33,926 bases of DNA from Candidatus Zhuqueibacterota bacterium (GTDB lineage: Bacteria > Zhuqueibacterota > Zhuqueibacteria > Residuimicrobiales > Residuimicrobiaceae), in assembly GCA_963169875.1 (NCBI GenBank), contig CAUJEL010000038.1, positions 1-33,926 on the forward strand, given 5' to 3'. Positions 3,636 through 24,929 of the stretch are shown here, piece by piece (position 1 is the stretch's first letter; each line of letters begins with the position of its first letter). Under the pieces are notes generated by a model. It was not told the DNA's origin. It ran no database searches and saw only the letters and a list, made by a program, of their open reading frames with translations. Both the position numbers and the translations under genes were made by a program.

Positions 3636-3848
3636 GTTATAGCACAGTTGATCTTCTGCAAAAGTCTTTACTTTTCTGTATATTCTTATTACTTTATATT
3701 TGGCGTTACAAAGCCAGCAGGATCGCATTCCTGCCCGCACAGAGCCAGGGGAAACCAATTGCCAGCCACACGGATCTCAGGCAGTAGCCTGCCATATCGC
3801 CTTTTGCCGAAGCGGTTTTCAATGGGATAAACACAGGTTCACTCGAAG

Positions 3849-5252
3849 ATGAATAAAAATGATCTAAAAAATTACTATGACAATTATGCCGGTCAGCGTC
3901 AACGCTGGATCAAAAAAAACTGGTATTATCATAAAAATCTGGCCAGGTATTTTTCCTTCATCATTCCGGCCAACAGCCGTGTGCTCGAGATCGGTTGTGG
4001 AACCGGAGAACTTTTGGCAGCCGTGCAACCATCCTGTGGCGTGGGGATTGATTTTTCCGAAAAAATGCTCGATATTGCCCGGGGAAAATATCCCGATTTG
4101 ATTTTCAAATACGATGATGCCGAAGCGCTGCAGATGGATGAGCCCTTCGATTATATCATCATGTCCGATCTGGTCGGTACCCTTTGGGATATTCAGGCCG
4201 CCCTGAAAAGCCTGCAACGCGTAGCACGCCCCCACAGCCGCATCGTGATTTCTTATTACAGCTATCTCTGGGAGCCGGTCTTCCGCTTCGCGGAAAAGGT
4301 GGGATTAAAATTCAAGCAGCCCCTGCAAAATTGGCTCTCGCCCGCGGATTTGGATAATCTCCTGAGACTGGAAGGCTTCGAGACGATCCGCATCGACCGC
4401 AAGCTGCTATTGCCGAGAAACATCCCGATCCTTTCTTTTCTGTTCAACCGCATCATCGCGAATCTGCCGCTCCTCCACCACCTCTGCATGATCAACATCA
4501 TCATCGCGCGTCCGTCCGTGGAACCGGAGAAAGAACACTCGGTGAGCATCGTCATTCCGGCGCGCAATGAAAGCGGCAACATCGAAAATGCCATCAAACG
4601 CATGCCCCGATTTGGCACCGGACAGGAAATCATTTTCATCGAAGGCCACTCACAGGATGACACCTACCAAAAAATGGTCGAAGTAGAGAAAAAATATCCC
4701 GCGTGGGATATCAAGCTGATGCAACAAAGCGGCAAAGGCAAGGGCAATGCGGTCTTTGAGGCCTTTGCTGCCGCCAGCGGCGATATTCTCATGATTCTTG
4801 ATGCGGACCTGACCACGCCGCCGGAAGATCTCCCCAAATTCTATGAGGCCTTGAAAAGAAACAGAGGGGAGTTCATCAACGGCTGCCGCCTGGTCTATCC
4901 CATGGAAAAAGAGGCGATGCGCTTTCTCAACCATATCGCCAACAAATTCTTCGGTCTGGTTTTTTCGTACCTTCTCGGTCAACGCCTCAAAGACACCTTG
5001 TGCGGCACCAAAGTTCTGTTTCGCAGCGATTACCAGAAAATCAAGGCGCACCGCAGTTACTTTGGTGATTTCGATCCATTTGGTGACTTTGATTTGCTAT
5101 TCGGCGCGGCAAAATTAAATTTAAAAATCGTTGAAGTGATTGTGCGCTACCGGGATCGCGACTATGGTTCGACGCAAATCAGCCGTTTCCAGCATGGGCT
5201 CCTGTTGCTGCGCATGTGCGCCTTTGCTGCAAGAAAGATTAAATTCATATGA
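3849..5252 (+). CDS. SAM methyltransferase / GT2 glycosyltransferase fusion
   Basis: This is a two-domain protein of 467 residues. Residues about 1-220 form a class I SAM-dependent methyltransferase with motif I VLEIGCGTG at 45-53, an acidic GIDFSEKML strand, and a post-motif region ending in a hydrophobic stretch. Residues about 231-467 form a family 2 glycosyltransferase with SIVIPARNESGN at 233-244, the metal-binding DAD at 318-320 (ILDADLTTP) and a GDFD..GDFDLLFGA segment near 406-420, like polyprenyl-phosphate (dolichol-P-mannose synthase type) transferases. There are no C-terminal membrane helices, so it is likely cytoplasmic or peripheral. The natural acceptor is unknown. The next gene encodes a GT-C-like membrane protein, and a lipid-linked-sugar synthase beside a GT-C enzyme is a common pairing. 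No frameshift is seen at the domain junction, so the fusion looks genuine. Confidence 0.88.
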   Translation: MNKNDLKNYYDNYAGQRQRWIKKNWYYHKNLARYFSFIIPANSRVLEIGCGTGELLAAVQPSCGVGIDFSEKMLDIARGKYPDLIFKYDDAEALQMDEPFDYIIMSDLVGTLWDIQAALKSLQRVARPHSRIVISYYSYLWEPVFRFAEKVGLKFKQPLQNWLSPADLDNLLRLEGFETIRIDRKLLLPRNIPILSFLFNRIIANLPLLHHLCMINIIIARPSVEPEKEHSVSIVIPARNESGNIENAIKRMPRFGTGQEIIFIEGHSQDDTYQKMVEVEKKYPAWDIKLMQQSGKGKGNAVFEAFAAASGDILMILDADLTTPPEDLPKFYEALKRNRGEFINGCRLVYPMEKEAMRFLNHIANKFFGLVFSYLLGQRLKDTLCGTKVLFRSDYQKIKAHRSYFGDFDPFGDFDLLFGAAKLNLKIVEVIVRYRDRDYGSTQISRFQHGLLLLRMCAFAARKIKFI

Positions 5253-5565
5253 TCTGCAGTATTCACCGCGGAAAACGCAGAGACGCGCAAAAAAAACATA
5301 AAAATAGCATCAATGGCAACTTTTATGGCTGAGATGCAATTCAAATCAAAACCTGTTCCCAAAATATAATGGAAACAACTCGGCGGTTGATGAATGCAAC
5401 AGACTCGGAGTCTGTGTCATGGATCGCTGGAAGCCACTTCTCTGCACCGCAGCGGTGAATATTTTCACCTTGAGAGTCGTGCTTACACCAAATCCGAGAC
5501 AGAATAATCAACTTTTCTCTCAAGCCGGGGACGATTCCCGCAATAATCTCAAATAAGGAAGAACA
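5253..5565. other. Intergenic gap with degenerate repeats
   Basis: There is no convincing gene in this stretch. It holds a CCGCGGAAAACGCAGAGACGC-like degenerate repeat at about 5262-5288 and a CACCGCAGCGGTGAA palindrome-like sequence near 5445-5459. No clear terminator follows the upstream gene. Confidence 0.4.
5262..5288. repeat. Degenerate CGCAGAG-type intergenic repeat
   Basis: The sequence TTCACCGCGGAAAACGCAGA and the bases after it form a degenerate member of the family also seen at about 534, 9941, 25600, 25863 and 25900. It lies just after the methyltransferase/GT2 stop codon. Confidence 0.45.
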
Positions 5566-5586
5566 GTGCCATTGTTTGGAGTAATA

Positions 5587-7158
5587 ATGAACAAACGTCT
5601 TACACGTCAACTGCCCCTGCTGCTATCCATTACGTTTTATCTGTCAGTTGGATGCCTTTTATTGCCCTATTACCGCTATCAAATCAATCCGGATGGCATC
5701 AGCTACATCAACAATGCCCTCCTGATCCTCAAGGGACACTTCATTTTGTCCGTCAATGACCATTGGAACCCGTTAATCTCCTGGCTTCTGGCCCCCTTTC
5801 TGCTGATGGGCATTAAGGCGCAACCGGCTTTCAAATTGATGAACCTGTTGATGGGCGTCCCTGTGTTTATTTTGGCAAATGTCTGGCTGCAACGTCTGAA
5901 ATTAGCGGGTTGGATTCGCTGGTTGACTCTTTTTGTTTTGGTGCCGCCGGTGCTGTGGATGGCGATGTCGGTGATCAGTCCGGACCTGTTATTGGCCGTC
6001 TGTTTGCTGCTCTATTTGACCATCCTCTACCGTCCCGGGTATTTTGATAAGGGCTCGAACGCGATCGCGCCGGGCTTTGCGGCGGGATTGGCTTATCTGG
6101 CCAAATATTATTCACTGCCGTTCATCATGGTTCATCTATTGGCGTATCATGCCCTCGAATACTATCACCGGCGTCATGAAAACGGGCGCAAAATTTTGAA
6201 AAATTATGCCCTTTCCCTGCTGATATTTACTACCATTGCCATCTCATGGATGGTCCTGCAGTCGCAAAAATACAATCAATTCGGCATGGGGCACCATGCC
6301 AATGGCTGGGCTTTCGCCTTTATCGATCCAAATCAGGAAGAATTCATTCTCGATCGCTCCGGGCTGGTGCCGCCACCCTACCCCGCGGCGACCAGCGCCT
6401 GGGATGACCCGCACTGCGTACCGGTGGTTCCCTGGTCGCCCTGGAAATCAATGCAAGACATGGTTGCTTATGCCAACATCATCCGAGGTTTTTTTTCCAT
6501 TTCGCTAGATCTATTAAATCAATTCTCACCTTTTGCCTGGGGCATTGTGTTGGTTTTCATTTTTTGGGGTTTTGGCAAATTCTCCTCCATCCCTTCCAGT
6601 AAAGAGGCGTGGAAATGGCTGTTGCCCTTTTTCATTTATATTGGCGGATATCTGCTTGTCTGGGTCGAAGAACGTTATTTGTGGTTTGTAAATCTGTTGT
6701 TGGTCATCATGCTACTGCACGTACTCGCGATCTGGTTCAAGCAGGGAAGTACGTTTGCCAAAAAGATCGTCACCGTTCTCCTGCTTGTTTCATTCTGCTA
6801 CTTTCCCATGGAGAAACTGGTCAATTATTTCGATCGCGACAAAAAATATTTCGATCTGGCCCGGCAGCTGCAAGCAGCGGAGACGCCCGGGGAGGCCAGG
6901 ATCGCCTCCAATAAAAACTGGAATGAGAGCCTCTATCTGTGCCATTACCGCGACTGGAAGTATTATGGCAGTTGTGCTATTTATGATGACCAAAACTTGA
7001 TGAAAAAAGAATTGCAGGCGAACCGGATAGATTGTTTTCTTTACTGGGGCCACGAGCCCACGGCAGCGTTTTCGTTTTTGCAGAATTATCCGGATCTGTT
7101 ATCTGGATCTATCAGAGGCATGCATCTTTACGATCTCAGAAGCATGAAGCAGGAGTGA
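5587..7158 (+). CDS. GT-C-like integral membrane glycosyltransferase
   Basis: The protein has about ten hydrophobic segments across 523 residues and ends in a soluble domain. The first loop after helix 1 carries an acidic INPDGISYINNA motif, followed by DHWNPLISWLL, which is the layout of GT-C/GT39-type (ArnT, PMT-like) transferases that use a lipid-linked sugar donor outside the inner membrane. No specific family is certain. I prefer the ATG at 5587 because GGAG sits six bases upstream and the protein then begins MNKRLTRQ before helix 1. A GTG at 5566 with AAGGAA upstream would add seven residues and is also possible. Its neighbour encodes a methyltransferase/GT2 fusion that may make the donor lipid, although the 300-base gap argues for separate transcription. 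Confidence 0.75.
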   Translation: MNKRLTRQLPLLLSITFYLSVGCLLLPYYRYQINPDGISYINNALLILKGHFILSVNDHWNPLISWLLAPFLLMGIKAQPAFKLMNLLMGVPVFILANVWLQRLKLAGWIRWLTLFVLVPPVLWMAMSVISPDLLLAVCLLLYLTILYRPGYFDKGSNAIAPGFAAGLAYLAKYYSLPFIMVHLLAYHALEYYHRRHENGRKILKNYALSLLIFTTIAISWMVLQSQKYNQFGMGHHANGWAFAFIDPNQEEFILDRSGLVPPPYPAATSAWDDPHCVPVVPWSPWKSMQDMVAYANIIRGFFSISLDLLNQFSPFAWGIVLVFIFWGFGKFSSIPSSKEAWKWLLPFFIYIGGYLLVWVEERYLWFVNLLLVIMLLHVLAIWFKQGSTFAKKIVTVLLLVSFCYFPMEKLVNYFDRDKKYFDLARQLQAAETPGEARIASNKNWNESLYLCHYRDWKYYGSCAIYDDQNLMKKELQANRIDCFLYWGHEPTAAFSFLQNYPDLLSGSIRGMHLYDLRSMKQE

Positions 7159-7354
7159 AATTGCAGCACGTGCCATGGCTCGGAAGGGTTTGCATCAGGG
7201 CATTTAATCCGGGGGCGCTACAACTGTTGTAAATGGTTTTTCTCGTCCGGTGTCAGTTGCGGAAATTCATGCAGAATACCCGCCCGGACATCAGTCACTA
7301 TCAGATGTACAATGCATAAAAACCGTCACGACCACCTCATAACAGGGAGCTGCC

Positions 7355-9802
7355 ATGAAATACGGTTATTTTGACGACAAGAATCGCGAGTATGTCATAA
7401 CCCGGCCGGACACCCCGCTGCCGTGGATCAATTATCTCGGCTGCGAAGACTACTTTGGCATCATCTCCAACACCGCCGGCGGCTATTCCTTTTATCGCGA
7501 CGCGCGCCTGCGCCGCCTCACCCGCTACCGCTACAACAACGCGCCCTTTGATTTCGGCGGACGCTATATCTATCTGCGCGAGGATGAAACCGGCCAATTC
7601 TGGTCTCCATCCTGGCAGCCGACACAAAACGAATTGCAGGATTATACCTGCCGCCATGGCATGGGCTATACCATCATCGGTTCCACCTGCAACCAGATCA
7701 AAGCCGAGACGCGTTACTTTGTCCCGCTCGGCGAAAATCTGGAAATCTGGCAACTGCAGGTCACCAACCAGCGCAAAAAAGAGGCGCAGCTTTCGGTTTT
7801 TTCAGCCATCGAGTTCTGCCTCTGGGATGCCCAGGACGATGCCAGCAATTTTCAGCGCAATTTCAGCACCGGCCAGGTGGAAATCGAAAACGGGGTGATC
7901 TATCACAAAACCGAATACCGCGAGCGCCGCGATCATTTCGCCTACTTCGCCTGCTCGCCAAAACCCGCCGGCTACGACACCCAGCGCGACGTCTTCCTCG
8001 GCCGATACCGCAGCTGGAACAATCCCGCGGCCGTGGAACGCGGCCGCTCCTTCAATTCGGTGGCCCACGGCTGGGCCCCCATCGGTTCCCATCACATCAA
8101 ACTGTCGCTCAAGCCCGGCGAGACCCGCCAGGTTATTTTTGTGCTGGGCTACCACGAAAATCCCAAAGAGTGTAAGTTTGATCCCCCAGCCTCTCAGACC
8201 ATCAACAAAAAGACGGTCAAACCGGTCATAGCTAAATATCTCAAACCCGTTGAAGTCGAAAAGGCCTTTACGGCGCTGCAAAACTACTGGGAAAAAATTC
8301 TCGGGCTCTATCAGGTGAAAACGCCCGATAAACATGCGGACCGCATGGTCAACATCTGGAACGCCTACCAGTGCATGGCCACTTTCAACATGTCGCGCTC
8401 AGCCTCTTTTTACGAGTCCGGCATCGGCCGCGGCCTCGGATTCCGCGATTCCAATCAGGATCTCCTCGGCTTTGTCCACATGGTGCCGCAACGGGCGCGG
8501 CAGCGGGTGCTGGATCTCGCCGCCACCCAGCTGCCCGGCGGCGGCGCCTACCATCAGTATCAGCCGCTCACCAAACGCGGCAACAACGACATCGGCGGCA
8601 ACTTCAACGACGATCCCCTGTGGCTCATCCTGGGGACCATCGCCTATGTGAAAGAAACGGGCGATTTTTCCATCCTCGATGAAAAAGTCCCTTATGACAA
8701 CCAACCCGGCAGCGAGACGCCCCTGTACGAACATCTGCAGCGCAGTTTGACCTACACGCTGCAGCGCATCGGGCCGCACGGACTTCCGCTCATCGGACGC
8801 GCCGACTGGAACGACTGCCTCAATCTGAACTGTTTCTCCGATACGCCGGGACAATCCTTTCAGACCACCACCAACAAGGATGGCCAGGTCGCTGAATCCG
8901 TTTTCATCGCCGGCCTCTTCGTTCTGGCCGCAAACGAGCTGGCGGAACTGGCCGAACAGCGCGGCCTGAAAACTGAAGTCAAGCAGTACCGCCAGGCCGC
9001 TGAACTCATGTCCGCGGTCGTCAAAAAACACGGCTGGGACGGACAGTGGTTCGTGCGCGCCTATGACGATTTCGGTAAAAAGGTGGGTTCCAAAGAATGC
9101 AAAGAGGGAAAAATCTTCATCGAACCGCAGGGATTCTGCGTCATGGCGGGCATCGGCATCGAGGAAGGCCTGGCGGAAAAAGCCCTGAATTCGACCCATA
9201 AACTATTGGGCACCAACCACGGCATCATGCTGCAGCAGCCGGCTTATTCAAAGTATTATCTCGAACTGGGCGAAATTTCCTCCTATCCGCCCGGATACAA
9301 GGAGAACGCCGGCATCTTTTGTCATAACAATCCCTGGGTTATGATCGCCGAGACGCGGCTGGGCCGCGGCGACCAGGCGTTCGCAACCTATATCCGCATC
9401 AATCCGTCGGCGCGCGAAAATCTGGCCGATGTGCACCGCTGCGAACCCTATGTCTATGCGCAGATGATCGCGGGTGCCGACGCGCCCACCCACGGCGAAG
9501 CCAAAAACTCCTGGCTCACCGGCACCGCCGCCTGGAATTACGTGGCCATCACCCAGCACATCCTCGGCATTCGCCCGGCGTATGATGGACTGATGGTGGC
9601 GCCGGTGATTCCGGAAGCGTGGAAAGGGTTCAGCGCCTCCCGCCTGTTCCAGGGCGTGCGCTATGACATCACGGTGAAACGCGTTGGCAAGGGGAATAGG
9701 GTTGAGCTGATTGTGGATGGAAAGGCTGTTGCAGGAAATGTCATCCCCAAACCGGGGGATGGAAGAAACCGGGTAAAGGTTATGGTCCAGTTGGGCGGCT
9801 GA
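7355..9802 (+). CDS. GH94 cellobiose phosphorylase
   Basis: The 815-residue protein matches family GH94 throughout, including the N-terminal [21 protein letters not shown] segment shared by cellobiose phosphorylases (EC 2.4.1.20). These enzymes convert cellobiose and phosphate to glucose 1-phosphate and glucose. The catalytic acid is expected at Asp487 in [11 protein letters not shown] (residues 482-492), equivalent to Asp490 of the Cellulomonas/Cellvibrio gilvus enzyme. The [18 protein letters not shown] and [19 protein letters not shown] stretches are typical of the alpha/alpha-barrel. No signal peptide is present, so it acts in the cytoplasm and saves ATP on imported cello-oligosaccharides released by enzymes such as the GH9 gene downstream. 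An AGGGAG ribosome site sits seven to eight bases before the ATG. Related GH94 activities (cellodextrin, laminaribiose, chitobiose) cannot be fully excluded, but the N-terminus favours cellobiose. Confidence 0.93.
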
Positions 9803-9940
9803 TTTAGGGCCGGGATTCGGCAGGCGGGAATGCAAGGAAATTACAGATGGCGGGGGTAATCCACCTGGCTTTAATTTTGCATCGCGTGCGCAAAGAAACA
9901 GAGGAAAAACCAGTTTCCATACATTGGAAGAATACCTCGA

Positions 9941-9967
9941 CGATCCTCGGCGCCCTTTGCGGTTAAT
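9941..9967. repeat. Degenerate CCTTTGCGGTTAA-type intergenic repeat
   Basis: ATCCTCGGCGCCCTTTGCGG followed by TTAA resembles the common CTTGGCGNCCTTTGCGGTTAA intergenic sequence, the reverse orientation of the CGCAGAG/CACAAAG-like copies at about 534, 5262 and 25.6-25.9 kb. It lies in the leader of the HAD gene. Confidence 0.45.
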
Positions 9968-9999
9968 CGATTCGCCAAATTGAAAATATTGAACACGAC

Positions 10000-10767
10000 A
10001 TGCACATCAACGAACCCATAAAAGCCATCCTCTTCGATCTGGACGGCACGCTCATGGACACCGATGACCAGACGGTTGCCAGAGTCACAACGTGGCTGCA
10101 AAGGCTGCACATCCCGCAGCCGCAGCGCCGGGCGCGCCGGCTGGTGATGATCGCTGAAACGCCCGTCAATGCGCTCATCACATTGCTCGACCGCTTGGGC
10201 CTGGATGCCTTTCTCATGAATCTGTGGCAGCGGCTCAGCGGCAAGAGGAGAGCGCAAGGACACCATTTCCCCATCATCGCGGGCGTGCCGGAACTGCTGG
10301 CCAGACTGCACGGCCGCTACCAGCTGGCGGTGGTCACGACGCGCAGCGATGCCGAGGCACAAGCTTTCATCGCAGAACATCAGTTACAGCATTTTTTTAC
10401 GCTGGTGGTCACGCGCAATTCCACGCGCCGCCTCAAGCCACATCCGATGCCCATTCTCTTCGCCGCCACTCAGCTGCAGATTCCTGTCAGTCACTGTCTC
10501 ATGGTGGGCGACACCACGCCGGATATCATTTCGGCCATTAAAGCGGGGGCGCGCTCCATCGGCGTCCTGTGCGGGTATGGCAGCCGGGAGGAATTGGAAA
10601 AAGAAGGGGCGACAGTCGTGGTGGAACATATTGAGGATGTGGCCGCTGTGGTGGAGCAGCTGGCAGCCTCAAACCACGATGATCTCCGCATGCGCTCGCG
10701 CCGCTGCGATAATGGGCCCCTTGAGGGCCATGACAAATCCGATATAACTGCCCCTGATGACCAGTAA
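10000..10767 (+). CDS. HAD-family hydrolase (phosphatase-like)
   Basis: This 255-residue haloacid dehalogenase superfamily phosphatase shows all four motifs: I, LFDLDGTL with nucleophile Asp13 and Asp15; II, VVTTRS; III, the Lys in RLKPHP; IV, VGDTTPD. The order and the helical cap (about 25-90) fit the phosphoglycolate phosphatase/PpaX type, but the substrate cannot be read from sequence. The conserved domain ends near residue 223. The last ~30 residues (rich in Asp, Arg, Gly) lie on the opposite strand of the AbrB-like gene's 3' end, a tail-to-tail overlap of 99 bases, and look like run-on translation after loss of an earlier stop. No strong ribosome site is visible before the ATG. Confidence 0.85.
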   Translation: MHINEPIKAILFDLDGTLMDTDDQTVARVTTWLQRLHIPQPQRRARRLVMIAETPVNALITLLDRLGLDAFLMNLWQRLSGKRRAQGHHFPIIAGVPELLARLHGRYQLAVVTTRSDAEAQAFIAEHQLQHFFTLVVTRNSTRRLKPHPMPILFAATQLQIPVSHCLMVGDTTPDIISAIKAGARSIGVLCGYGSREELEKEGATVVVEHIEDVAAVVEQLAASNHDDLRMRSRRCDNGPLEGHDKSDITAPDDQ

Positions 10768-11133
10768 ACGATCCTGCGGATTGATTTTTAAGCCCGCCAT
10801 GGTGCTGGAGGACAATTTCAGGATTTTTCCCGGATGCACGGTGCTCCAGCCATACATCCTGCCTTTATAGGGGAGCAGCTCTCCTTCGCGCATTTGAAAA
10901 CTTTCCAGGAGTGGATTGTCGGAAAGGATGGCGGCCATGGCCGATTGAGCGATGCGCTCCGCCTTGGCCACCACCATACCTCCGCTGGAGCGGCTGCCCG
11001 AGATCAGAATCACCTTCTCAAAATCCGCGAGCTCATATTCCGCAGCCGCTTCTGCCGGAAGGACAATGGACCCATCGTCCCGAATCGTGCTCCACGCAAA
11101 AACGTATTTCCCCCCTTTGGCGATTTGAGGCAT
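10669..11133 (-). CDS. Conserved protein with two AbrB-like repeats
   Basis: The 154-residue protein belongs to a small conserved bacterial/archaeal family that begins PQIAKGGKYVFAWS. I know of no assigned function. It contains two similar halves: residues about 12-52 (FAWSTIRDDGSIVLPAEAAA...EKVILISG) and about 92-135 (YGWSTVHPGKILKLSSST...DRLLVIRGS). Each resembles a swapped-hairpin AbrB/SpoVT strand-turn-helix, so the protein could be an intramolecular AbrB-type dimer. A glycine/serine motif SGSRSSGG follows the first half. DNA binding is an inference, not shown. AAGGAAG lies eight bases before the ATG. Its 3' end overlaps the HAD gene on the other strand by 99 bases, and the PorV-like gene lies 133 bases upstream in the same direction. 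Confidence 0.78.
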   Translation of the reverse strand: MPQIAKGGKYVFAWSTIRDDGSIVLPAEAAAEYELADFEKVILISGSRSSGGMVVAKAERIAQSAMAAILSDNPLLESFQMREGELLPYKGRMYGWSTVHPGKILKLSSSTMAGLKINPQDRLLVIRGSYIGFVMALKGPIIAAARAHAEIIVV

Positions 11134-11266
11134 GATTCAGCTTCCTTTAAAGTGTCATGCGCTTCAGCGCGCGGCTCCTGGCGAAGGCGTCAACCCAAAC
11201 AGATCGGACTAACGCCACAAATTAGTAGTATCCTGCTTGCTGACCAGAAAAAAATTTCAAGACGTT

Positions 11267-12532
11267 CTATCTAAATATCGGAAAAGCGCTCAAACGAAGA
11301 ACATAACTGTCTGCTTCCGTCTCTGCCAGGGGGTGTTCCGGCGCGGCTTCATATTCACTGTGATGCTTTTCAAAAGCCAGATGGCTCAAGAGGCGTAGGG
11401 GCCATTTTTGGTCCAGATTGAGCAGAACGGCGGCGATGCGCAGCGGCTGCAAAAAATTGATGCCGTATCCTGACGTCTCCAGCAAGACTTTTCCTTCTAC
11501 GTCCTCATACTTGCCGCCGCGTAGGAAATAGATCCCGGCGAAACCCAATTCATATCCACGCTTGCTGATGATCTCTGCGTTGGACTTGCCTCGGAATACA
11601 TGATCCCAGAAATTGAGATCGGGCGGAGTGTCGAGATAAGTTGACGAACCATCCTTGAAGCGCTCAACCAGCATATCCTCAGCCTCGCGGCTCCAGTTGA
11701 ACCCCGCCAGCGGCAGGCCGCGACAACGCACCCCGGTCTGGAGATTGACGCCCAGGGTGAGGGTTCTGGGCAGGGGATCGGACTGGGCCGCATCAATGTA
11801 GGAGATCTTGTCGCCAATATTGGTTTTGCTGAAATAAAAGCCGGGATCAAACCAGAAATCAACCAGCGACTCGCCCGGAGGCGCCAGCAGGCCGCTCTTC
11901 CGTGCGAGGTCAACCAGGGGCGCCTGCACCATCAATCCCCAATCCTTGGCATCGATACTGGCCCGGCCATCGCCACGCTCCTCGCCAGCGCCGAAAGGCG
12001 CCAGGTTGGAATCAATGTGTTTCCAGGTGACGCCAATACTGGCGCGCAGGTAGTAATCAACGGCCACGGCCAGGGTGGTGCCCTCCACCTCTTCGCTGCT
12101 GGAAAACGTACCAACAGGCTCAGGACTGTCTTCGAGGGTTTGATACTGCGTCCCCAAATCGAGGAATATGCGGCTGCGGGCCATGCCAATGGAGACGGGA
12201 ATATGGGTAAATTGTTTGAGGTTGATTCCGATAGCGGTCGTCCGCGCATCGTAGGTCAGACCAGGGCCATATTGCGGCAGCCACACCATCGCGTCGGGAT
12301 AGTATTCATGTCCCAAATAGTTGTTCTGTGCAAAGAACCCCAGGCTGGCGGGATTCATGATGGCAGCCATGGGGGAAGCCACCGCTGTCGTACCATAGGT
12401 TTGCCCCATGGCATTGGCGCCGGGCGATGGGGAGATCAACAAAAAAATAACTGCTGCTTCGGAAACCGCAAACGACTGCGTGACACTTGCCAGCATCAAT
12501 ACCATCATCAACAAAACGACGATCCGTTTCAT
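11267..12532 (-). CDS. PorV/PorQ-like outer-membrane beta-barrel protein
   Basis: I chose the ATG at 12532 because a perfect AGGAGG (complement of 12538-12543) lies five bases before it and the protein then starts with a signal peptide, MKRIVVLLMMVLMLASVTQSFA. A longer frame from 12577 lacks this support. After the signal comes ISPSPGANAMGQTYGTTAVASPMAAIMNPASLGFF, the glycine/alanine-rich start with a NPA(S/G)L motif that marks the PorV/PorQ/UPF0164 group of FadL-like barrels. Alternating hydrophobic strands continue to the end, which finishes in Phe-Arg. PorV acts in type IX secretion as an outer-membrane carrier of sorted cargo. That role is plausible here because two T9SS-tagged enzymes are encoded downstream, but many paralogues have other or unknown functions. 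Confidence 0.68.
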   Translation of the reverse strand: MKRIVVLLMMVLMLASVTQSFAVSEAAVIFLLISPSPGANAMGQTYGTTAVASPMAAIMNPASLGFFAQNNYLGHEYYPDAMVWLPQYGPGLTYDARTTAIGINLKQFTHIPVSIGMARSRIFLDLGTQYQTLEDSPEPVGTFSSSEEVEGTTLAVAVDYYLRASIGVTWKHIDSNLAPFGAGEERGDGRASIDAKDWGLMVQAPLVDLARKSGLLAPPGESLVDFWFDPGFYFSKTNIGDKISYIDAAQSDPLPRTLTLGVNLQTGVRCRGLPLAGFNWSREAEDMLVERFKDGSSTYLDTPPDLNFWDHVFRGKSNAEIISKRGYELGFAGIYFLRGGKYEDVEGKVLLETSGYGINFLQPLRIAAVLLNLDQKWPLRLLSHLAFEKHHSEYEAAPEHPLAETEADSYVLRLSAFPIFR

Positions 12533-12681
12533 GATGTCCTCCTGTACATTGGTACCACAGCTTTTGTGCTCGTGCACGGGCTTGCGACTTCAAAGATGCG
12601 TTGGAATCTGCTGTAAAGCTGATGTCCGACGCCTTCCTGCGCGGCCGCATGTTTCCTAAACAGCCTAATTGAATCTCTACA

Positions 12682-14331: not shown

Positions 14332-17271
14332 ATGCTTCGGGTATTTGTCTCGATTCTCATTCTTTTGGGATCACAGAGCGTTTCGTTTTCGGCTGATCTG
14401 ATCCGAATTCAACCTGTTACCGATAAAATATTGGTGGCGGAATTCTCCGAAGGCCACATCGACTATTTTGGCCTCGGTCAGACCCGCCTGAGCGGTAACC
14501 GCGTCTATTACTCCAAACTGGATGTTGCCGCCGCTGTTGCCCCTGGCAATTATTCAATCTCCAGCCCGGACGATGCACACTACCAGCCCGCCCAATCCCC
14601 CGTCACCATCGGACGCAAATCCAAAGGCCATGATTTCAACGATCTCGCCGCCGCCCCCATGCCCAGGGTGCTCCTGCGGCACTGGATATACCTCGAGCTG
14701 CCCTTCACCATGGAACAGGGCAAAACCTACTCTGTGCAACTCAAAAATCTCGCCTCGAACGTCAATGTCCATACATTTGCATTCGATGCGAAAACGCTGC
14801 GCTCACCCGCCATCCATGTCAACCAGATCGCCATGATGCCCCAGGCGCCGAAATATGCCTATCTGTCGCACTGGATGGGTTCCTTTGACACGTTTGAACA
14901 TCCCTCCGGCGCGCTCAATCTGGACCGCTACTATTATGCGCCGTTCCAGGTCGTACGTATTTCGGATGATGCGGTTGTCTTCTCCGGCCGCGTCGACCGC
15001 CAGCGTCTGAAAAACGCACAGGATTTCACCAGCGCCACCTTCAGCAACGCCAACATGACGCGCGCTGATGTGTTCCAGTGCGATTTTTCCGCGCTGACGA
15101 CGCCCGGCGAATATCGTCTCGTCGTTGAAAAAATGGGCTGCTCTTTTCCCTTTCATATCAGCGCGGATGCCTATCGCGCCCCCTATCACTATACCTCCAG
15201 AGCCCTGTTCACGCAGCGCCAGGGCATCAACCGTGAAATCGAACCCGGCCTTGTCTATCCCCGCGATCATCGCACGGAAGACGGCATCGTGATGAAATAT
15301 TATCCAGACCTAAAAACCGAGGGCAATATTGATCCCGATATGGGCGTTGGAAACGTCACCGGGGTCTGGGGCTGGTACCATGACGCCGGCGACTGGGACA
15401 CCTATCCGGATCACTATGTCGTGCCCATGACCCTGCTGGCGCTGTATGACCTGAAACCGGAGAACTTTGGCGATGGCGACGTGGGGCCGAAATATCAGAC
15501 GGACAGCGCTGAACCCTGGATCGATGAAGGCCGCAACGGCATTCCCGATGTACTCGATGAGGCCATGTGGCTGATCCGCTATTACAAACGCACCAAAGAT
15601 GCGCTCATCGCCCAGGGATTCAGCACCGGCGGCGTCCCCGGCTATGCCGGCGTTGACGCCGGCGCGGAGAGCGGTACCGCCTCGTGGCGCGACAGACGCG
15701 TCATGGCCCTCAAAGGCGCGGATTCGGTGATGATGTCCTATCGCTACGCCGCCTGCGCCGCATATCTGTGCATCTGCCTGGATAAATTCCAGGGCGGCCT
15801 TCATCCCGACACTCCGGGCTGGCTTCTCGAAGCCCGCACCGCCTACGACTGGTCGCAGCGGCAAAACCAGGATGCCGACGCGGACATCAATCGCAGCCGC
15901 ATGATGGCTGCCGCGGCGCTGTATCGCTATACCGGCCATACCAATTATCAGGATGATTTCCGCCTCTGTAAAAGTAAAGACAAAGGCTGGAAATCGTACC
16001 TGTGGTTCATGCTCAACCCGTGGCATTTCACTGCGCTCATCTATGGCAACATACCCGATGGCCGTCCGGGCCTCGACATCGTCCTGCGGCAGCAGTGCAT
16101 CAATGATCTCGTCACCATGGCCAATCTCGAGACGGTGGAAACCGCCCGCGATCGGGGTTTTCGCTACGGCGCCTCACGCAGTATCATGCATATGCTCGGC
16201 GCCATGAGCACGCCCAAAATATTTCTGGCCGCTGCGGCTTATGAATTCACAGGCGAGAAGAAATTCCTCGATGCCTGTTACACCACCTGCGATTACTGCC
16301 TCGGCGGCAATCAACTGGATCTGGTCCGCGTCAGCGGCCTGGGCGAGAATAACGAGCAGCAGCCGTTTCACTGCGACTCCTGGTATCTCGTCGATTATAA
16401 CAGCCTGGTCTACACCAATCCCATCCTGCCGGGTTATGTCATTTATGACATGCATTACAACGGCGACTGGATGGCGGGCGAGGGCTGGGACTGGATCGGC
16501 GACGAAGATTACTCCCGCTCGACCGCCTTTCCCCCCATCGCCGATTTCCCCGACGCGGAGGCGCGCTTTCCCAATCGCTGGAGCATCGCGGGCAGCGAAT
16601 TCACCATCCAGCAGACCCAGAGCCAGGCCATCTTCGCCTACGGCTATCTCTGCGCCCCCTACAGCAGCGCCTATGTGCCCAATCAACGGCCGGAAATAGC
16701 GCTCAATCTGAAGGAAGATTCCGTCATAAAAACGGACAGCGTGGTGGTGTTGACGGTGACGGCCTCGGCGGATGTGCGGCGCGTGGAATATTATTATGAT
16801 TGGCATTTCATCGGGGAGAGCAGCGATTCGGCCACCAACTTTGGCTTTGCCTGGGACCTGGCCGATTACAAAATCATGCCCGGCAAGCGCCTCATCACGG
16901 CCAAGGCCTATGATGATCAAGGTGTGGAATCGAAACCAACGGAGGAAGGTGACAAATATGTGCTTATTGAGACGGCCTCGGCGGTGCAGGAAAAATCGCA
17001 GGAAGACGCGCGGTTCGACCTGAAAGGATGTTATCCCAATCCGGCCAATCCCAGCACGACCGTCTCTTTTTCCTTATCCCGGCACGGCTTCACCCGGGTT
17101 CGTCTCTATAACTGCCGCGGAGAAGAGGTGGCCGCGCCTCTGAATGCTGTGCTGGATGCCGGTTCACACGAGATCAGATTGCAGACCTCGCCCTTGCCTT
17201 CGGGCGTTTACTACTGCGTGCTGCGCCAGGAGGAGCGATATGACGTCAGCAAATTCGTGGTGCTCAGATAA
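14332..17271 (+). CDS. GH9 endoglucanase with T9SS sorting domain
   Basis: The 979-residue secreted enzyme has, in order: a signal peptide (1-20), an N-terminal beta-rich module (about 21-155), a CelD_N-type Ig-like domain (about 160-280, HVNQIAMMPQAPKYAYL to EYRLVVEK), the GH9 alpha/alpha-barrel (about 282-780), an Ig-like domain (about 785-880) and a T9SS type A sorting domain (895-979). GH9 enzymes cleave beta-1,4-glucans by inversion. The HDAGDWD motif gives the paired acids Asp351 and Asp354, and Glu756 in AGSEFTIQQTQSQAIF is the likely general acid. The sorting domain begins GCYPNPANPSTTVSF and ends SKFVVLR, so the protein is expected to cross the outer membrane by the type IX system. 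AAGGA lies before the ATG. The next gene is 63 bases downstream and carries the same type of tag. Confidence 0.92.
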   Translation: MLRVFVSILILLGSQSVSFSADLIRIQPVTDKILVAEFSEGHIDYFGLGQTRLSGNRVYYSKLDVAAAVAPGNYSISSPDDAHYQPAQSPVTIGRKSKGHDFNDLAAAPMPRVLLRHWIYLELPFTMEQGKTYSVQLKNLASNVNVHTFAFDAKTLRSPAIHVNQIAMMPQAPKYAYLSHWMGSFDTFEHPSGALNLDRYYYAPFQVVRISDDAVVFSGRVDRQRLKNAQDFTSATFSNANMTRADVFQCDFSALTTPGEYRLVVEKMGCSFPFHISADAYRAPYHYTSRALFTQRQGINREIEPGLVYPRDHRTEDGIVMKYYPDLKTEGNIDPDMGVGNVTGVWGWYHDAGDWDTYPDHYVVPMTLLALYDLKPENFGDGDVGPKYQTDSAEPWIDEGRNGIPDVLDEAMWLIRYYKRTKDALIAQGFSTGGVPGYAGVDAGAESGTASWRDRRVMALKGADSVMMSYRYAACAAYLCICLDKFQGGLHPDTPGWLLEARTAYDWSQRQNQDADADINRSRMMAAAALYRYTGHTNYQDDFRLCKSKDKGWKSYLWFMLNPWHFTALIYGNIPDGRPGLDIVLRQQCINDLVTMANLETVETARDRGFRYGASRSIMHMLGAMSTPKIFLAAAAYEFTGEKKFLDACYTTCDYCLGGNQLDLVRVSGLGENNEQQPFHCDSWYLVDYNSLVYTNPILPGYVIYDMHYNGDWMAGEGWDWIGDEDYSRSTAFPPIADFPDAEARFPNRWSIAGSEFTIQQTQSQAIFAYGYLCAPYSSAYVPNQRPEIALNLKEDSVIKTDSVVVLTVTASADVRRVEYYYDWHFIGESSDSATNFGFAWDLADYKIMPGKRLITAKAYDDQGVESKPTEEGDKYVLIETASAVQEKSQEDARFDLKGCYPNPANPSTTVSFSLSRHGFTRVRLYNCRGEEVAAPLNAVLDAGSHEIRLQTSPLPSGVYYCVLRQEERYDVSKFVVLR

Positions 17272-17334
17272 TTTCCTCGCATTTCCGTTGCTGGTGTATT
17301 CATCTTCATCGCAGAATGATTTCTGGAGGAGTAA

Positions 17335-19308
17335 ATGGATGACCTCTTTCCGCGTCGAACGGATCAGAGTACCAGTTCGCGCGTTCGCGTGGCGAAAAAG
17401 ACCATAGTTAGCCTGGCGCTCCTGACCACCCTCCTATATGGCCAAACCAATAACAGACTTGTAATCGGCACCAATATCTCCGGCCTCTCCGACTGGATGA
17501 CCGAAATGCCGTTCGTCGATGTCATGCACCATTGCCGTACATGGATGACCTCCAACAGCGTCTGGATCTCGGGCGGCAAGAACGAATGGGACACGGGATT
17601 CATCGCCCGCATCCCCAAGGACGAAAACGGCTATCCCCTGTCACTGCCATACCGCTTCGCCGAAGCGGAAACCCTGCAGGTGGTGCACACCATCTGGGCG
17701 GTTCTCGCCGGCTGGGCCGAAGGCATCTACACGCTGCTCTACGATGGCAGGGGCGACCTGGAATTCTGGGGCAGCATGACGCTCCTCAGCGAAGAGCCCG
17801 GACGCATCCGCATCAACATCAAACGGCCCGCGAATGAAGACGGCGTGCTCGGACTGAAAATCCTGCGCTCCGACAGCAGCGACCACATACGCAATTTGCG
17901 CCTGCTCATGCCGGGGACGGAAACGACTTATCAGACCATGCCGTACTACGCGGCGTGGTATGAGAAACTGCAGCCCTTCAAGGTCCTCCGCTTCATGGAC
18001 TGGGGCCAGACCAACAACTGGGGACATGACAACGCCTGGGAATGCTATGATCAGGATGACGACACCACCACAGCGCCCTGGAGCGCGCGCGCCCGATACG
18101 CAGACTATACCTGGGCCACCAACAAGGGCGTGCCCTACGAAGTGATGATCGATCTCTGCAACCGGCTGCAAGCGGATATGTGGATTTGCGTCCCCCATAA
18201 TGCCAGCGATGAGTACATCCGCGAGCTGGCGCTTCTGCTCAAGAACGATTTGAATCCGCAGTTAAAGATCTACGTAGAATACAGCAACGAGACCTGGAAC
18301 TGGATGTTCGGGCAGACGCAATGGTTGAACACGTTCGGCTGCGTCAAAAAGGGGATATCGTGGCCCGAAGGCATTGTACCCTATGTGCAAAACTGTCTCG
18401 ACATCTTTAGCGATGTTTTCAACGGCGAACTGACGCGGATCGTGCGCGTGGTCGGAGTGCAAACCTCCTGGCAGGATGTGAGTAACCGCATCGTCTTTAA
18501 TCTGCGGCCGGGCAGCTTTGACGCCCTTGCGCCCGCGGCTTACTTCGGTATCAGCGAAGCCGCGGACGCGGAGCTGGACGCCCTGGGCGCGGCGGCGACG
18601 GCTGCGGATATCGTCACGCGCGTCCGCGTCTCGCGGCGCCAGAACGAAGAGCCGTGGCTCGCTGCTCAAAAAAAAGAGATCGCGGACAAATTGGGCATCC
18701 CCATGCTCTATTACGAAGGCGGTCAGCATCTCACGCCGACACCGTTTGGCGAGGAGCCATCCTATGCTCAGGCGCTTTTGCATGTGCAGCGCGACACCGC
18801 CATATACAACCTCTATCGGGAATGGTTCGCGTTTCTCGAAACCCTGAACACGCCGGGGCGGGAGAGCCTGTTTATGAATTTCTCGTTCATCGGCCAGCGC
18901 AGCGCCCGCTACGGCAGCTGGGGCATCCTCGAGAGCGTCACCCAGGACACCCTGGCCGTCCCGGCGCCCAAGTATCGCGCCATCAAAAACTACCTGGCGT
19001 CGTTTCAAACCGGCCTTCAGCAAAGGACACCCGGAATGGTGAATCCCGTAGCGCGGTTGGCGCAAAATTATCCCAATCCCTTTAATCCCGGAACCACCAT
19101 CTCCTTTTATCTGTCTCATCGCGCGTCGGTGACGTTAAAGATCGTGGATGCGATTGGCCGGGAAGTGGCCCGGCTGGTGGATGAGGAGCTGGAGGCGGGA
19201 ACCCACACCCGGCAGTGGTCAGCGGATAAAATGCCCGCCGGGATTTATTATTACACCCTGCAGGCGGGGGCGCACCGGGAGAGCAAAAAACTGCTGTTGC
19301 TGCATTAG
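17335..19308 (+). CDS. Clan GH-A-like secreted protein with T9SS tag
   Basis: This 657-residue protein has a hydrophobic signal (about 20-37), a central domain of about 530 residues and a T9SS type A domain (575-657, LAQNYPNPFNPGTT...GIYYYTL). I cannot assign the central domain to a named glycosidase family. It has features of a clan GH-A TIM barrel: KIYVEYSNETWNW puts Asn318-Glu319 where the acid/base of that clan follows strand 4, and MLYYEGGQH puts Glu461 where the nucleophile follows strand 7. The spacing of 142 residues is reasonable. GGAGGAG lies four to five bases before the ATG at 17335. A GTG at 17389 would give a shorter signal peptide but has no ribosome site. It follows the GH9 gene by 63 bases, so a role in cellulose or hemicellulose attack is likely. 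Confidence 0.85.
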   Translation: MDDLFPRRTDQSTSSRVRVAKKTIVSLALLTTLLYGQTNNRLVIGTNISGLSDWMTEMPFVDVMHHCRTWMTSNSVWISGGKNEWDTGFIARIPKDENGYPLSLPYRFAEAETLQVVHTIWAVLAGWAEGIYTLLYDGRGDLEFWGSMTLLSEEPGRIRINIKRPANEDGVLGLKILRSDSSDHIRNLRLLMPGTETTYQTMPYYAAWYEKLQPFKVLRFMDWGQTNNWGHDNAWECYDQDDDTTTAPWSARARYADYTWATNKGVPYEVMIDLCNRLQADMWICVPHNASDEYIRELALLLKNDLNPQLKIYVEYSNETWNWMFGQTQWLNTFGCVKKGISWPEGIVPYVQNCLDIFSDVFNGELTRIVRVVGVQTSWQDVSNRIVFNLRPGSFDALAPAAYFGISEAADAELDALGAAATAADIVTRVRVSRRQNEEPWLAAQKKEIADKLGIPMLYYEGGQHLTPTPFGEEPSYAQALLHVQRDTAIYNLYREWFAFLETLNTPGRESLFMNFSFIGQRSARYGSWGILESVTQDTLAVPAPKYRAIKNYLASFQTGLQQRTPGMVNPVARLAQNYPNPFNPGTTISFYLSHRASVTLKIVDAIGREVARLVDEELEAGTHTRQWSADKMPAGIYYYTLQAGAHRESKKLLLLH

Positions 19309-21273: not shown

Positions 21274-22122
21274 ATGAAGAAAGCCGTTTTCCTTTTCCTG
21301 GTCGTTCTCACGGCGACCGTGTTCGCTGCGCAATCGGTGATTGTCGAGGCTGTGGGCACGGCGAGCATGGGCGATACAAAAAGCAAAAAAGAAACCATGG
21401 AGGAGGCCAAAGCCAATGCCATCAGAAACGCAAGCGAAAATGCGGGCATTTATATTTCTTCAGAGACCAAAATCAAGAATTACGTACTGGAAAGCGATCT
21501 CGTCGAGGCGTTCGCCAGGGCGGAGGTCCGGATTCTGAGCGAAAACGGGGAATGGTTCAGGGATGAAACCCTGGGCGACAGCTATCGCGTGACGATACAA
21601 GCGGAAGTGACCCCGGACGAACTGAAGGAGAAACCCGGAATGAGCGCTGCGGCCGAGGATCCGGGCGCTCCGTTGAAGGTCACCCTTTGGGCTGAAAAAA
21701 ACCAGGTCGAATTCAGGGCCGGTGAAACGATCAGGCTCTATCTCAAAGGCAACAAACCGTTTTTTGCCCGCATCGTCTACCTGCAAAATGACGGGACCCA
21801 GGTGCAACTGCTGCCCAATCCCTACCGGCAAGAAAATTATTTCAACGGCGGCACCATCTATACCCTGCCTTCGGGGCCGGATCAGTATGAGTTGACCGTC
21901 GCGCCGCCCTTCGGATCCGAAAAGATCATACTCTACGCCAGCACGGCCGAACTGGGCGACGTCGCGGTCGAGGACGCCGGCGCCGTTTATTCCATCGCAG
22001 AGAAGATCAAGGATACCGGCGTCAAGACCAGAGGCATCAAAATCACCAAAAAGCAAGGCAAGAGCGCGTCCGCCGCCGAGTTCGACGAGCAGGCCCTGGA
22101 AATTGTCACCAGCGAGCAATAG
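21274..22122 (+). CDS. Secreted DUF4384 protein, partner of caspase gene
   Basis: The 282-residue protein has a signal peptide (1-19, ending VFAAQ), an N-terminal domain (about 20-115) with alternating strands and an alanine-rich helix (ETMEEAKANAIRNASENAGI), like the LPP20/FlgT N-terminal fold, and a DUF4384 domain at about 133-230 (PLKVTLWAEKNQVEFRAGETIRLYL...FARIVYLQNDGTQVQLLPN). The C-terminal tail is charged. It is probably periplasmic or surface-exposed. GGGAG precedes the ATG. The next gene, a beta-propeller/caspase protein, starts 35 bases downstream. DUF4384 often occurs with or fused to caspase-like domains, so the two likely work together. The biochemical role of DUF4384 is unknown. 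Confidence 0.85.
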   Translation: MKKAVFLFLVVLTATVFAAQSVIVEAVGTASMGDTKSKKETMEEAKANAIRNASENAGIYISSETKIKNYVLESDLVEAFARAEVRILSENGEWFRDETLGDSYRVTIQAEVTPDELKEKPGMSAAAEDPGAPLKVTLWAEKNQVEFRAGETIRLYLKGNKPFFARIVYLQNDGTQVQLLPNPYRQENYFNGGTIYTLPSGPDQYELTVAPPFGSEKIILYASTAELGDVAVEDAGAVYSIAEKIKDTGVKTRGIKITKKQGKSASAAEFDEQALEIVTSEQ

Positions 22123-22157
22123 AATTCATCAACAATGAGCGAATACCGAGGTGTTGC

Positions 22158-24929
22158 GTGTCCACAAGAATGATGCCCGTAAAAATGTTTTTCCCCGTCC
22201 TGTTATCGCTGTTCTTCCTTCAACCCGCTGTTGCGGCGGATTCGCTGCAGGTATTCGTCCAGACCGGCCATGCAACGGGCGTGGACAAAATGACCACATC
22301 ACCGGACGGCCGGTTTCTGGTCAGTGCCGAAGGACAGGGCTATCAGAAGATATGGGAAATATCCAGCGGCCGGGAAATCAGAACGCTAAAATTTGGCGAT
22401 ACCGTTTCAGGCTTGCATTTTATCGACAATGACCGGTTTGTCATTCTTGGCGCCAACCGCGGCGAGATTTATAACTGCAGCGGCGAAAAACTCGAGACCC
22501 TGACGCTGCCTGCGGTGACTTCTTATGGCGAAAGATCGCTCACCCCCAATCTCCGCTATTTGCTGCTATCGAGTGCCGGCGGTAAATTAAATTTTGTCGA
22601 TATGAAAGACGCTTCCACGATCCGGCTGCCGGAGGATAAAGACGATTACAACTCGCCTCTGCTCAATCTGGGGAATGGCTTCTACGGTTTCTTTTACGAT
22701 GCCAGCCGCGACGATCAAAGCGACATCAGCAGAATCGGAAATACCGCCTATGTCATCTATGATCAGAATCTCGTGGCGCAAAAAAGAGGCCTGATAAAAG
22801 GGCAAATCTATATCGGGGCCAATCTCAAGGTGGACAAGGAATTAAAGCATGTCTACAAGAATTGGGATTTTATCCAAACCCCCACCATCACCGCCTATGA
22901 TCTGGATACCGGACTGGCCATCCGCAGCCTGCCGGGAAATAAAAGGGGCCAATTCGACCTGTTGCCGGACAATAGAATGGTTCTTCGTGTTTTCAACACC
23001 ACGGACGGCCAGCTCGATCTGTCGAGAAATGTGGATGTCTTTCTCTATGAATGGCTGGATAATGGCGGATATAAGGAAAAAAAACTTGCCTTCACCAGGC
23101 TCTATTTTGCCGCTCCGCTGCACATCACCGGTCAGGGACAGATCATTCTCAATACCCTGAAAGAGCAGAACAAGGACGCCGTCACGGTTCTGAAACTGTA
23201 CGACATTGCCGCCGGGGTGGAGATACGCACCTTCGGAGTCAATCCCATCGTGTTTCAGCAAATCGCTTATGCCGACGGCCGGCTCCTGAATTGGGGCAAG
23301 AATTTTCATCGTACCGGCAACACCATGCAGGTCTGGTACAATTATAATATCTGGGACCTTACAACGGCCGGCCTTTCGGTTTTCAATTTCTCCCACAGCA
23401 CCGGGGATGTGTATCAGGATCAGAATTACAAATGGATTATCAGAAATGCCAAAACGTTTTACAGTCATGTACCGTCAGAGTTTTTCGATGGCCCCTATGA
23501 AGGCCGCCATAAAGAGTACTTTGACACTGCCGTGGGGTATCCGGTCATATTCAAGAGCTCTTCCAGCGATCTGCTGTCCTTTGATCTGGATACCATTCTG
23601 CCCAAGGCCACCCATATCTCCGTGAAAAAGGCATCGGATAAATCGGAAGCGGCGCGGTTCTATGCGTTTTCGGACGGCGAATGGATCGTCATGACCCCGG
23701 AAGGATATTTCAACGCCTCGGCGAATGGGGCCAGATATATCAATATCAGAATCGGAAATCAGGTCTACAGCATCAATAATTTTTACGAGAAATTCTATAA
23801 TCCCGCTTATGTCGCCGCCGTGCTTCAGGGGCGTGAAGCGGAACCCGTCGCGGACATCAGAAAAGGCGTAGCCTTGCCGCCCCAGGTGCGAATCATCTCC
23901 CCGGAAACAAATACCACTTGTAAAAACGAAGTCCTGGAAATCCACGTATCGGCAAAAGATATGGGCGGCGGGATTGACGAGATCCGGCTCTATCACAACG
24001 GCAAGGCGATTGGTGAAGACACCCGGGGCGTCAAGCTCACAGCAAAAACCGGAGAGAGCAGCAAATCCTATTCGGTGGCGCTGGTCGACGGGATCAACGT
24101 CTTCCGGGCCGTGGGCTTCAGCCGCGATCGCACCGAATCGAATCCCTCCGAAATCGTCGTCACACTGCTGGCGCCGGAAAAAGAGATTTCCCTGTATGTC
24201 CTTGCTGTCGGGATCAACAACTATAAAAATCCCGCGCTGGATTTAAATTATGCCGAACCGGACGCCAAGTCAGTCGCCGGTTTTTTTCAGACCGGCGGGA
24301 GCCGGCTGTTTAAAACTGTCGTCATCAAGGATATTTACAACGAAGCCGCCACCAAGGCGGGCATTCTGTCGATGATGGCGGAGCTTTCCAGCACCAACCC
24401 GCAGGATGCGGTTCTGATCTATCTGGCGGGGCACGGGGAGAATATTGACGAGAACTGGTATTTCATTCCCCACGAATTGGTCTATCCGGAGCGGGAAGAG
24501 GATGTCAAGGCAAAAGCCATCTCTTCCGAGGAACTTGCGTCCGCGATTAAAAACATCACCGCGCAGAAAATTCTGGTGCTCATCGACGCCTGTAAATCCG
24601 GCGCGGTGCTGGTGGCATTCCGGGGTTTTGAGGATCGCAAGGCGCTGTCGCAGTTGTCCCGCGCGACCGGGGTGCACATCGTGGCGGCCTCTTCAAAAGA
24701 CCAGTTCGCGGCAGAAGTCAAGGATCTCGGCCACGGCGTCTTTACCTATATACTGCTCGAGGGGTTGAAAGGCAAAGCGGCGGGCGCGGGTGAGAATGTC
24801 ACGGTGCGGAAGCTGATGGGGTATCTCGAAGAGCAGCTTCCCGAATTGACCAAACGATATAAACAGGAAGCGCAGTACCCGGTGGTGGATTCGCGGGGCA
24901 TGGATTTTCCCCTGGTGCAGGGCAAATAG
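22158..24929 (+). CDS. Secreted beta-propeller protein with C-terminal caspase domain
   Basis: The 923-residue protein starts at GTG (GAGGTG four bases upstream; ATGs at 22170, 22173 or 22185 are alternatives). It has a signal peptide (MFFPVLLSLFFLQPAVAAD). Residues about 30-540 form WD40-like/propeller repeats, for example TGHATGVDKMTTSPDGRFLV and YQKIWEISSGREIRTL. An Ig-like domain follows (about 575-675, PPQVRIISPETN...). The C-terminus (about 678-915) is a peptidase C14 caspase-like domain with catalytic His759 in YLAGHGE and Cys812 in IDACKSG, both intact. Such proteins cleave after acidic or basic residues and are activated by partner domains. The propeller is the likely sensor. Location outside the cytoplasm is inferred from the signal peptide and argues against a classical intracellular cell-death role. 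Confidence 0.9.
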   Translation: MSTRMMPVKMFFPVLLSLFFLQPAVAADSLQVFVQTGHATGVDKMTTSPDGRFLVSAEGQGYQKIWEISSGREIRTLKFGDTVSGLHFIDNDRFVILGANRGEIYNCSGEKLETLTLPAVTSYGERSLTPNLRYLLLSSAGGKLNFVDMKDASTIRLPEDKDDYNSPLLNLGNGFYGFFYDASRDDQSDISRIGNTAYVIYDQNLVAQKRGLIKGQIYIGANLKVDKELKHVYKNWDFIQTPTITAYDLDTGLAIRSLPGNKRGQFDLLPDNRMVLRVFNTTDGQLDLSRNVDVFLYEWLDNGGYKEKKLAFTRLYFAAPLHITGQGQIILNTLKEQNKDAVTVLKLYDIAAGVEIRTFGVNPIVFQQIAYADGRLLNWGKNFHRTGNTMQVWYNYNIWDLTTAGLSVFNFSHSTGDVYQDQNYKWIIRNAKTFYSHVPSEFFDGPYEGRHKEYFDTAVGYPVIFKSSSSDLLSFDLDTILPKATHISVKKASDKSEAARFYAFSDGEWIVMTPEGYFNASANGARYINIRIGNQVYSINNFYEKFYNPAYVAAVLQGREAEPVADIRKGVALPPQVRIISPETNTTCKNEVLEIHVSAKDMGGGIDEIRLYHNGKAIGEDTRGVKLTAKTGESSKSYSVALVDGINVFRAVGFSRDRTESNPSEIVVTLLAPEKEISLYVLAVGINNYKNPALDLNYAEPDAKSVAGFFQTGGSRLFKTVVIKDIYNEAATKAGILSMMAELSSTNPQDAVLIYLAGHGENIDENWYFIPHELVYPEREEDVKAKAISSEELASAIKNITAQKILVLIDACKSGAVLVAFRGFEDRKALSQLSRATGVHIVAASSKDQFAAEVKDLGHGVFTYILLEGLKGKAAGAGENVTVRKLMGYLEEQLPELTKRYKQEAQYPVVDSRGMDFPLVQGK

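Follow-up and report, generated by a model that had tools for sequence, protein, structure and literature searches.

A predicted clan GH-A glycoside hydrolase with a type IX sorting tail, from a widespread family without a name in Pfam, NCBIfam or PDB sequences

INTRODUCTION

What is the function of the protein that is encoded immediately downstream of a GH9 endoglucanase-like gene in the 33,926-nucleotide stretch of DNA analyzed here (the window), and to which glycosidase family, if any, does it belong? A sequence-only reading had taken it for a clan GH-A-like enzyme that is exported by the type IX secretion system (T9SS), lies outside any family that could be named and may be a new type of plant-polymer hydrolase. 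The observation itself was confirmed, and its interpretation was partly supported. Our main reading, to which we assign a probability of about 0.7, is that of a retaining clan GH-A glycoside hydrolase secreted by the T9SS and belonging to a family without a name in the libraries searched, with catalysis and retention being predictions.

RESULTS

Gene and protein organization

The features that define the gene, its product and its immediate upstream neighbor are as follows.

14332..17271, + strand: upstream GH9 endoglucanase-like gene with a CelD_N domain and a T9SS tail, on the same strand
17325..17331, + strand: ribosome-binding site GGAGGAG, read directly, with three bases between it and the ATG
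17335..19308, + strand: whole ORF of 657 amino acids, with signal peptide, catalytic core and T9SS tail
17335..17442, + strand: N-terminal region with a signal-peptide-like hydrophobic stretch, KKTIVSLALLTTLLYG, recognized by eye
17440..19023, + strand: core (amino acids 36-563), a predicted clan GH-A-like (beta/alpha)8 barrel, from AlphaFold2 and PDB fold matches
19069..19296, + strand: T9SS type A sorting domain (amino acids 579-654; PF18962, E 6.5e-8; TIGR04183, E 4.5e-8)

The third-position GC of the ORF is strongly skewed, at 0.76. The sorting domain exceeds the curated cut-offs of both models, with 33.2 bits versus 27 for PF18962 (Por_Secre_tail) and 33 bits versus 23 for TIGR04183, which bears out the export tag that had been proposed. 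It is the only family of Pfam or NCBIfam found over its cut-off in the 657-residue protein. The protein combines this C-terminal domain with an N-terminal signal peptide, as is typical of T9SS cargo, the signal peptide being judged by eye. The core is present as a single copy in its genome; the other 149 whole-protein matches within the genome cover the C-terminal region only, and nearly all of them correspond to the shared sorting tail.

Predicted fold and catalytic residues

The AlphaFold2 model of the core, generated from 74 sequences, had a pLDDT of 94.2 and a pTM of 0.93, and a second model of a fragment comprising strands 2-8 had a pLDDT of 93.6. The PDB fold matches listed for the whole core are mostly clan GH-A glycosidases, which we take, from the molecule descriptions and general knowledge, to represent GH2, GH51, GH79, GH10, GH1 and GH53, and a few of those listed, such as C. 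difficile Cwp19, carry no clan assignment here. The strands 2-8 fragment retrieved the same clan, with GH51 and GH79 leading and TM values of up to 0.54 among the matches listed; values of this size to single PDB barrels indicate a likeness at the clan level only. The models thus support a clan GH-A-like (beta/alpha)8 barrel, as had been proposed. The residues of interest were placed on strands according to the secondary structure of the AlphaFold2 model.

17677..17907, + strand: seven-stranded all-beta domain (amino acids 115-191), which seems to interrupt the barrel between strands 1 and 2, from DSSP of the model
17989..17991, + strand: R219 on strand 2 (RFMDW), present in 74/74
18196..18198, + strand: H288 after strand 3 (WICVPH), present in 73/74
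18286..18291, + strand: N318-E319 just after strand 4 (EYSNETWN), proposed acid/base, present in 74/74
18541..18543, + strand: Y403 on strand 6, present in 74/74
18715..18717, + strand: E461 on strand 7 (YYEGGQH), proposed nucleophile, present in 74/74

The position of the all-beta domain follows from taking amino acids 42-47 as strand 1, as suggested by the strand count. Strand 4 of the model spans core residues 277-281 and is followed by N283-E284 (N318-E319 of the protein), and strand 7 spans core residues 424-429 and contains E426 (E461 of the protein). Both the ORF translation and the alignment of 74 sequences place N318-E319 and E461 exactly where the sequence-only reading had put them, and in the model they occupy the positions expected for the acid/base and the nucleophile of clan GH-A. 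As far as its secondary structure tells, the model gave no fold of the kind that would set the two Glu residues far apart and speak against the assignment. Together, the Arg of strand 2, the His of strand 3, the Asn-Glu of strand 4, the Tyr of strand 6 and the Glu of strand 7 make up, as modeled, the usual GH-A set. G463 and Q464 were also found in all 74 sequences. Because N318, E319 and E461 are invariant in the 74 relatives, the agreement with the acid/base and nucleophile positions appears, at the sequence level, to be more than chance. The E319 and R219 motifs served as search seeds of the genome scan, so that their invariance there is partly built in; E319 is invariant in 14 of 14 members of a sequence set that was gathered without peptide seeds, and E461, Y403, Q464, W249 and R252 were not used as seeds.

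Separation from named families

Queries with the whole protein, with its core and with family members retrieved no match to the core from Pfam, NCBIfam or PDB sequences. Pfam (2025) gave no meaningful match for 14 members, NCBIfam (June 2026) gave none for 74 members, and a profile search of PDB sequences returned no credible chain for the core family. A strong match to a non-enzymatic family, which would have spoken for a different role, was also looked for in Pfam and NCBIfam, and none was found over the core. GH5, GH39, GH44 and GH10 all belong to clan GH-A, and sequences of these families were gathered from the same phylum for comparison. Their hhalign probabilities against the core profile were 0.1-1.8%, which, given the shallow alignments, excludes these families at the family level and not at the clan level. 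The positive case, a sister subfamily, was detected at 100% (E 2.4e-53) over its full length of 453 columns. In control comparisons, the tested pairs among GH5, GH39, GH44 and GH10 detected each other at 46-99%, partly via shared T9SS tails, and AP endonuclease, an unrelated barrel family, detected none of the four. These results uphold the earlier statement that the core does not read as any glycosidase family that can be named.

A search of the literature yielded nothing relevant for the motifs or for a matching new family. The phages searched contained no relative, and a viral structure library returned mainly GH5-like proteins plus other barrels. A clan GH-A glycosidase is a known kind of protein, and the family has no name in Pfam, NCBIfam or PDB sequences, the libraries that were compared.

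Distribution and architecture of the family

At least 588 relatives were confirmed in a species-level genome collection. The 80 that were retained belong to the Bacteroidota, KSB1, Fermentibacterota, Spirochaetota, Planctomycetota, Verrucomicrobiota, Armatimonadota, Cyanobacteriota, Pseudomonadota, Thermodesulfobacteriota and Myxococcota; judged by homology, the family appears to span at least 10 bacterial phyla. The claim to a "new type" consequently needs qualifying: the lack of a named family in the libraries stands, but relatives of the protein run to the hundreds and cover at least 10 phyla. Relatives of the core in other genomes of the same phylum share 51-72% identity, and versions with 26-29% identity were found on plasmids of Alphaproteobacteria and of one cyanobacterium. 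Annotation, where there is any, mostly gives these plasmid-borne relatives as hypothetical, calcium-binding or cadherin-like proteins. In the tree, the window protein pairs with a 72%-identical protein from a metagenome-assembled genome (MAG), within a group of mixed origin in which Bacteroidota and KSB1 sequences predominate. A copy from a Lokiarchaeota MAG (L058:2619-4691) is interrupted by five in-frame stops within the part that matches; it may be a broken gene, a frameshift, an assembly error or a contaminant, and was omitted from the analyzed set.

Most copies outside the Bacteroidota and KSB1 have no long C-terminal extension, and many stop at the barrel; for other relatives outside these two groups, the annotation lists calcium-binding or cadherin-like domains. 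An N-terminal extension of about 460-540 amino acids precedes the barrel in one clade of mostly Saprospiraceae relatives (L070, L072, L073, L075, L078-L080, L083, L084, L089, L092 and L095).

Genomic context

The GH9 gene ends (17271) 63 bases before the start of the core ORF, and both genes encode a T9SS tail, in agreement with the earlier note. The GH9 protein is atypical (979 amino acids; 44 bits versus PF00759) and keeps the HDAGDWD motif. GH67 and GH94 are also among the neighbors in the window. The carbohydrate cluster at positions 1464-12577 comprises a GH67 alpha-glucuronidase, a methyltransferase-GT2 fusion, a GH94 phosphorylase, a HAD hydrolase and, on the minus strand, a protein with a weak likeness to PorV. 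Positions 21274-24929 encode a DUF4384/FlgT_N-like protein, followed by a 923-residue protein with caspase (C14), Big_7 and WD40-like regions.

A GH9 gene adjoins the core gene in three lineages, namely, the window, one KSB1-like genus (two genomes) and Membranihabitans (opposite strand), compared to about 0.04 expected under random gene placement with three GH9 genes per genome, a number taken from this genome. GH9 adjacency in these three Bacteroidota/KSB1-side lineages exceeds chance. The closest relative has no GH9 neighbor, and the GH9 of the window and the GH9 neighbor of the relative L045 are weakly alike; for both reasons GH9 was rejected as a conserved operon partner of the whole family. 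Other copies on the Bacteroidota/KSB1 side have GH53, GH2, GH20 or Sde182 next door. In two Bacteroidetes MAGs (L041:2016-3791 and L043:60-2411), a GH53 with a T9SS tail or a GH2 lies just upstream. A neighbor common to the whole family was looked for and not found, and the planctomycete and verrucomicrobial neighbors showed no pattern.

The copies of Rhodobacter, Roseobacter, Thioclava and Shinella are located in exopolysaccharide clusters with glycosyltransferase, flippase, chain-length and export genes, and the Gloeothece copy has a glycosyltransferase several genes away; no such cluster was found at two Paracoccus copies. Glycosyltransferase domains were present in 13 of 80 neighbors of mostly alphaproteobacterial, cyanobacterial, spirochete and desulfobacterial copies versus at most 4 of 151 in the other two sets, a contrast that is descriptive because the sets were picked after the first exopolysaccharide clusters had been seen. 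Few glycosyltransferases lie near the Bacteroidota or KSB1 copies. The degradation and exopolysaccharide-synthesis contexts do not name one substrate, and since both occur, a plant polymer is just one option. The proposal of a plant-polymer hydrolase thus fares unevenly: a GH9 neighbor in three lineages favors it, but there is none beside the closest relative, and its "plant-polymer" part is weakened by the many relatives outside the Bacteroidota and KSB1 that sit in exopolysaccharide-synthesis clusters and have no T9SS tail.

DISCUSSION

Homology, fold class, residue conservation and the sorting tail are direct results of the computation, and the protein is recognizable as an enzyme solely by its predicted fold and its invariant catalytic residues. 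We infer catalysis, retention, substrate and endo action along the following lines. The signal peptide would direct the protein across the inner membrane, and recognition of its C-terminal tail by the type IX system would take it across the outer membrane. Beta-glycosidic bonds would then be cut by double displacement, in which E319, as the acid/base, would protonate the leaving oxygen and E461, as the nucleophile, would form a covalent glycosyl-enzyme, with water completing hydrolysis under retention. R219, H288, N318 and Y403 would assist, with W249 and W321, both invariant, as the probable lining of sugar subsites. A beta-linked polysaccharide that is cut internally would be the most likely substrate; in this genome, where the enzyme would work alongside the GH9 protein, it is probably beta-1,4-glucan or hemicellulose. 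The alphaproteobacterial and cyanobacterial relatives, which have the same catalytic module, probably act on exopolysaccharide of the producer itself. The two kinds of genomic setting point to a family whose members cut related beta-glycans to different ends, nutrition in one case and matrix remodeling in the other.

Three other explanations have to be weighed. That the GH-A barrel is catalytically dead and serves at the cell surface in glycan binding or as a structural protein appears very improbable to us: no activity is known for any member found and many T9SS cargo proteins are adhesins, but both predicted catalytic Glu residues, like those that support them, stay unchanged in at least 10 phyla, which is unexpected for a binding-only barrel. 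A better, although still doubtful, case can be made for a very divergent member of a defined CAZy family, or for a recent CAZy family that is absent from the Pfam and NCBIfam copies used. The libraries compared were Pfam, NCBIfam and PDB, and new glycoside hydrolase families are defined regularly, as exemplified in PMC12102758. Speaking against this are the lack of a meaningful Pfam match for 14 members, of any NCBIfam match for 74 members and of a PDB sequence match, as well as the missing profile match to GH5, GH39, GH44 and GH10, although those partly find each other.

It is likewise possible, if rather unlikely, that the true role consists in trimming or releasing self-made exopolysaccharide or a surface glycan, as for PslG or the rhizobial exopolysaccharide glycanases, and that the GH9 neighbor is incidental. 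The exopolysaccharide clusters around the copies of the four alphaproteobacterial genera, the glycosyltransferase enrichment and the closest relative without GH9 would all fit such a role, and PslG, the GH39 enzyme of the Psl cluster, is an endo-beta-glucanase according to PMC11912335. However, the neighbors in the window include GH9, GH94 and GH67, and glycosyltransferases are scarce around the Bacteroidota and KSB1 copies.

We see an even chance that this is a large glycoside hydrolase family without a CAZy number or a characterized member, spanning at least 10 phyla, with an architecture of its own in the beta domain between barrel strands 1 and 2. Such a family would tie the degradation of polymers in Bacteroidota and KSB1 to the way in which Alphaproteobacteria and Cyanobacteria remodel the exopolysaccharide that they make. 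Hundreds of species possess a relative; the annotated records examined label it "hypothetical," "calcium-binding" or "cadherin-like," although it has the look of an exported enzyme that cuts polysaccharides. Confirmation would give clan GH-A a further family, set these annotations right and open a direct way to follow how glycans turn over in exopolysaccharide clusters and how uncultured KSB1 and Bacteroidota carry out degradation.

Comparison with known systems

The sister subfamily of the same phylum (L022, L023, L026-L029) shares the catalytic motifs and the full-length profile match, but forms a separate deep branch, has an ESSNEVWN motif and replaces the QH after YEGG by SDH or PDH. Its members were T9SS-tailed where checked, and at least one genome (G013) has more than one copy. 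With the clan GH-A structures, presumably GH51 arabinofuranosidases (2vrk, 6zt6 and 3ug3) and GH79 heparanases (5bwi and 7pr9), next to GH10, GH53, GH1 and GH2 enzymes, the core has in common the (beta/alpha)8 barrel, the Asn-Glu after strand 4, the Glu on strand 7 and the supporting Arg, His and Tyr in their usual places, as far as the model tells. It differs from them in an identity of 8-14% over the fold alignments, in the modest TM values given above, in the lack of a sequence-profile match and in the seven-stranded beta domain that apparently lies between strands 1 and 2. GH5, GH39, GH44 and GH10 likewise share the clan and the predicted catalytic arrangement, but no profile match. The T1SS-secreted exopolysaccharide glycanases of rhizobia are encoded within exopolysaccharide clusters, and PslG too is a secreted glycanase whose gene lies inside an exopolysaccharide biosynthesis cluster. 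Several alphaproteobacterial relatives share this setting with both systems, whereas the window protein is T9SS-exported, is encoded beside a GH9 enzyme and, at the profile level, is not homologous to the GH39 family of PslG.
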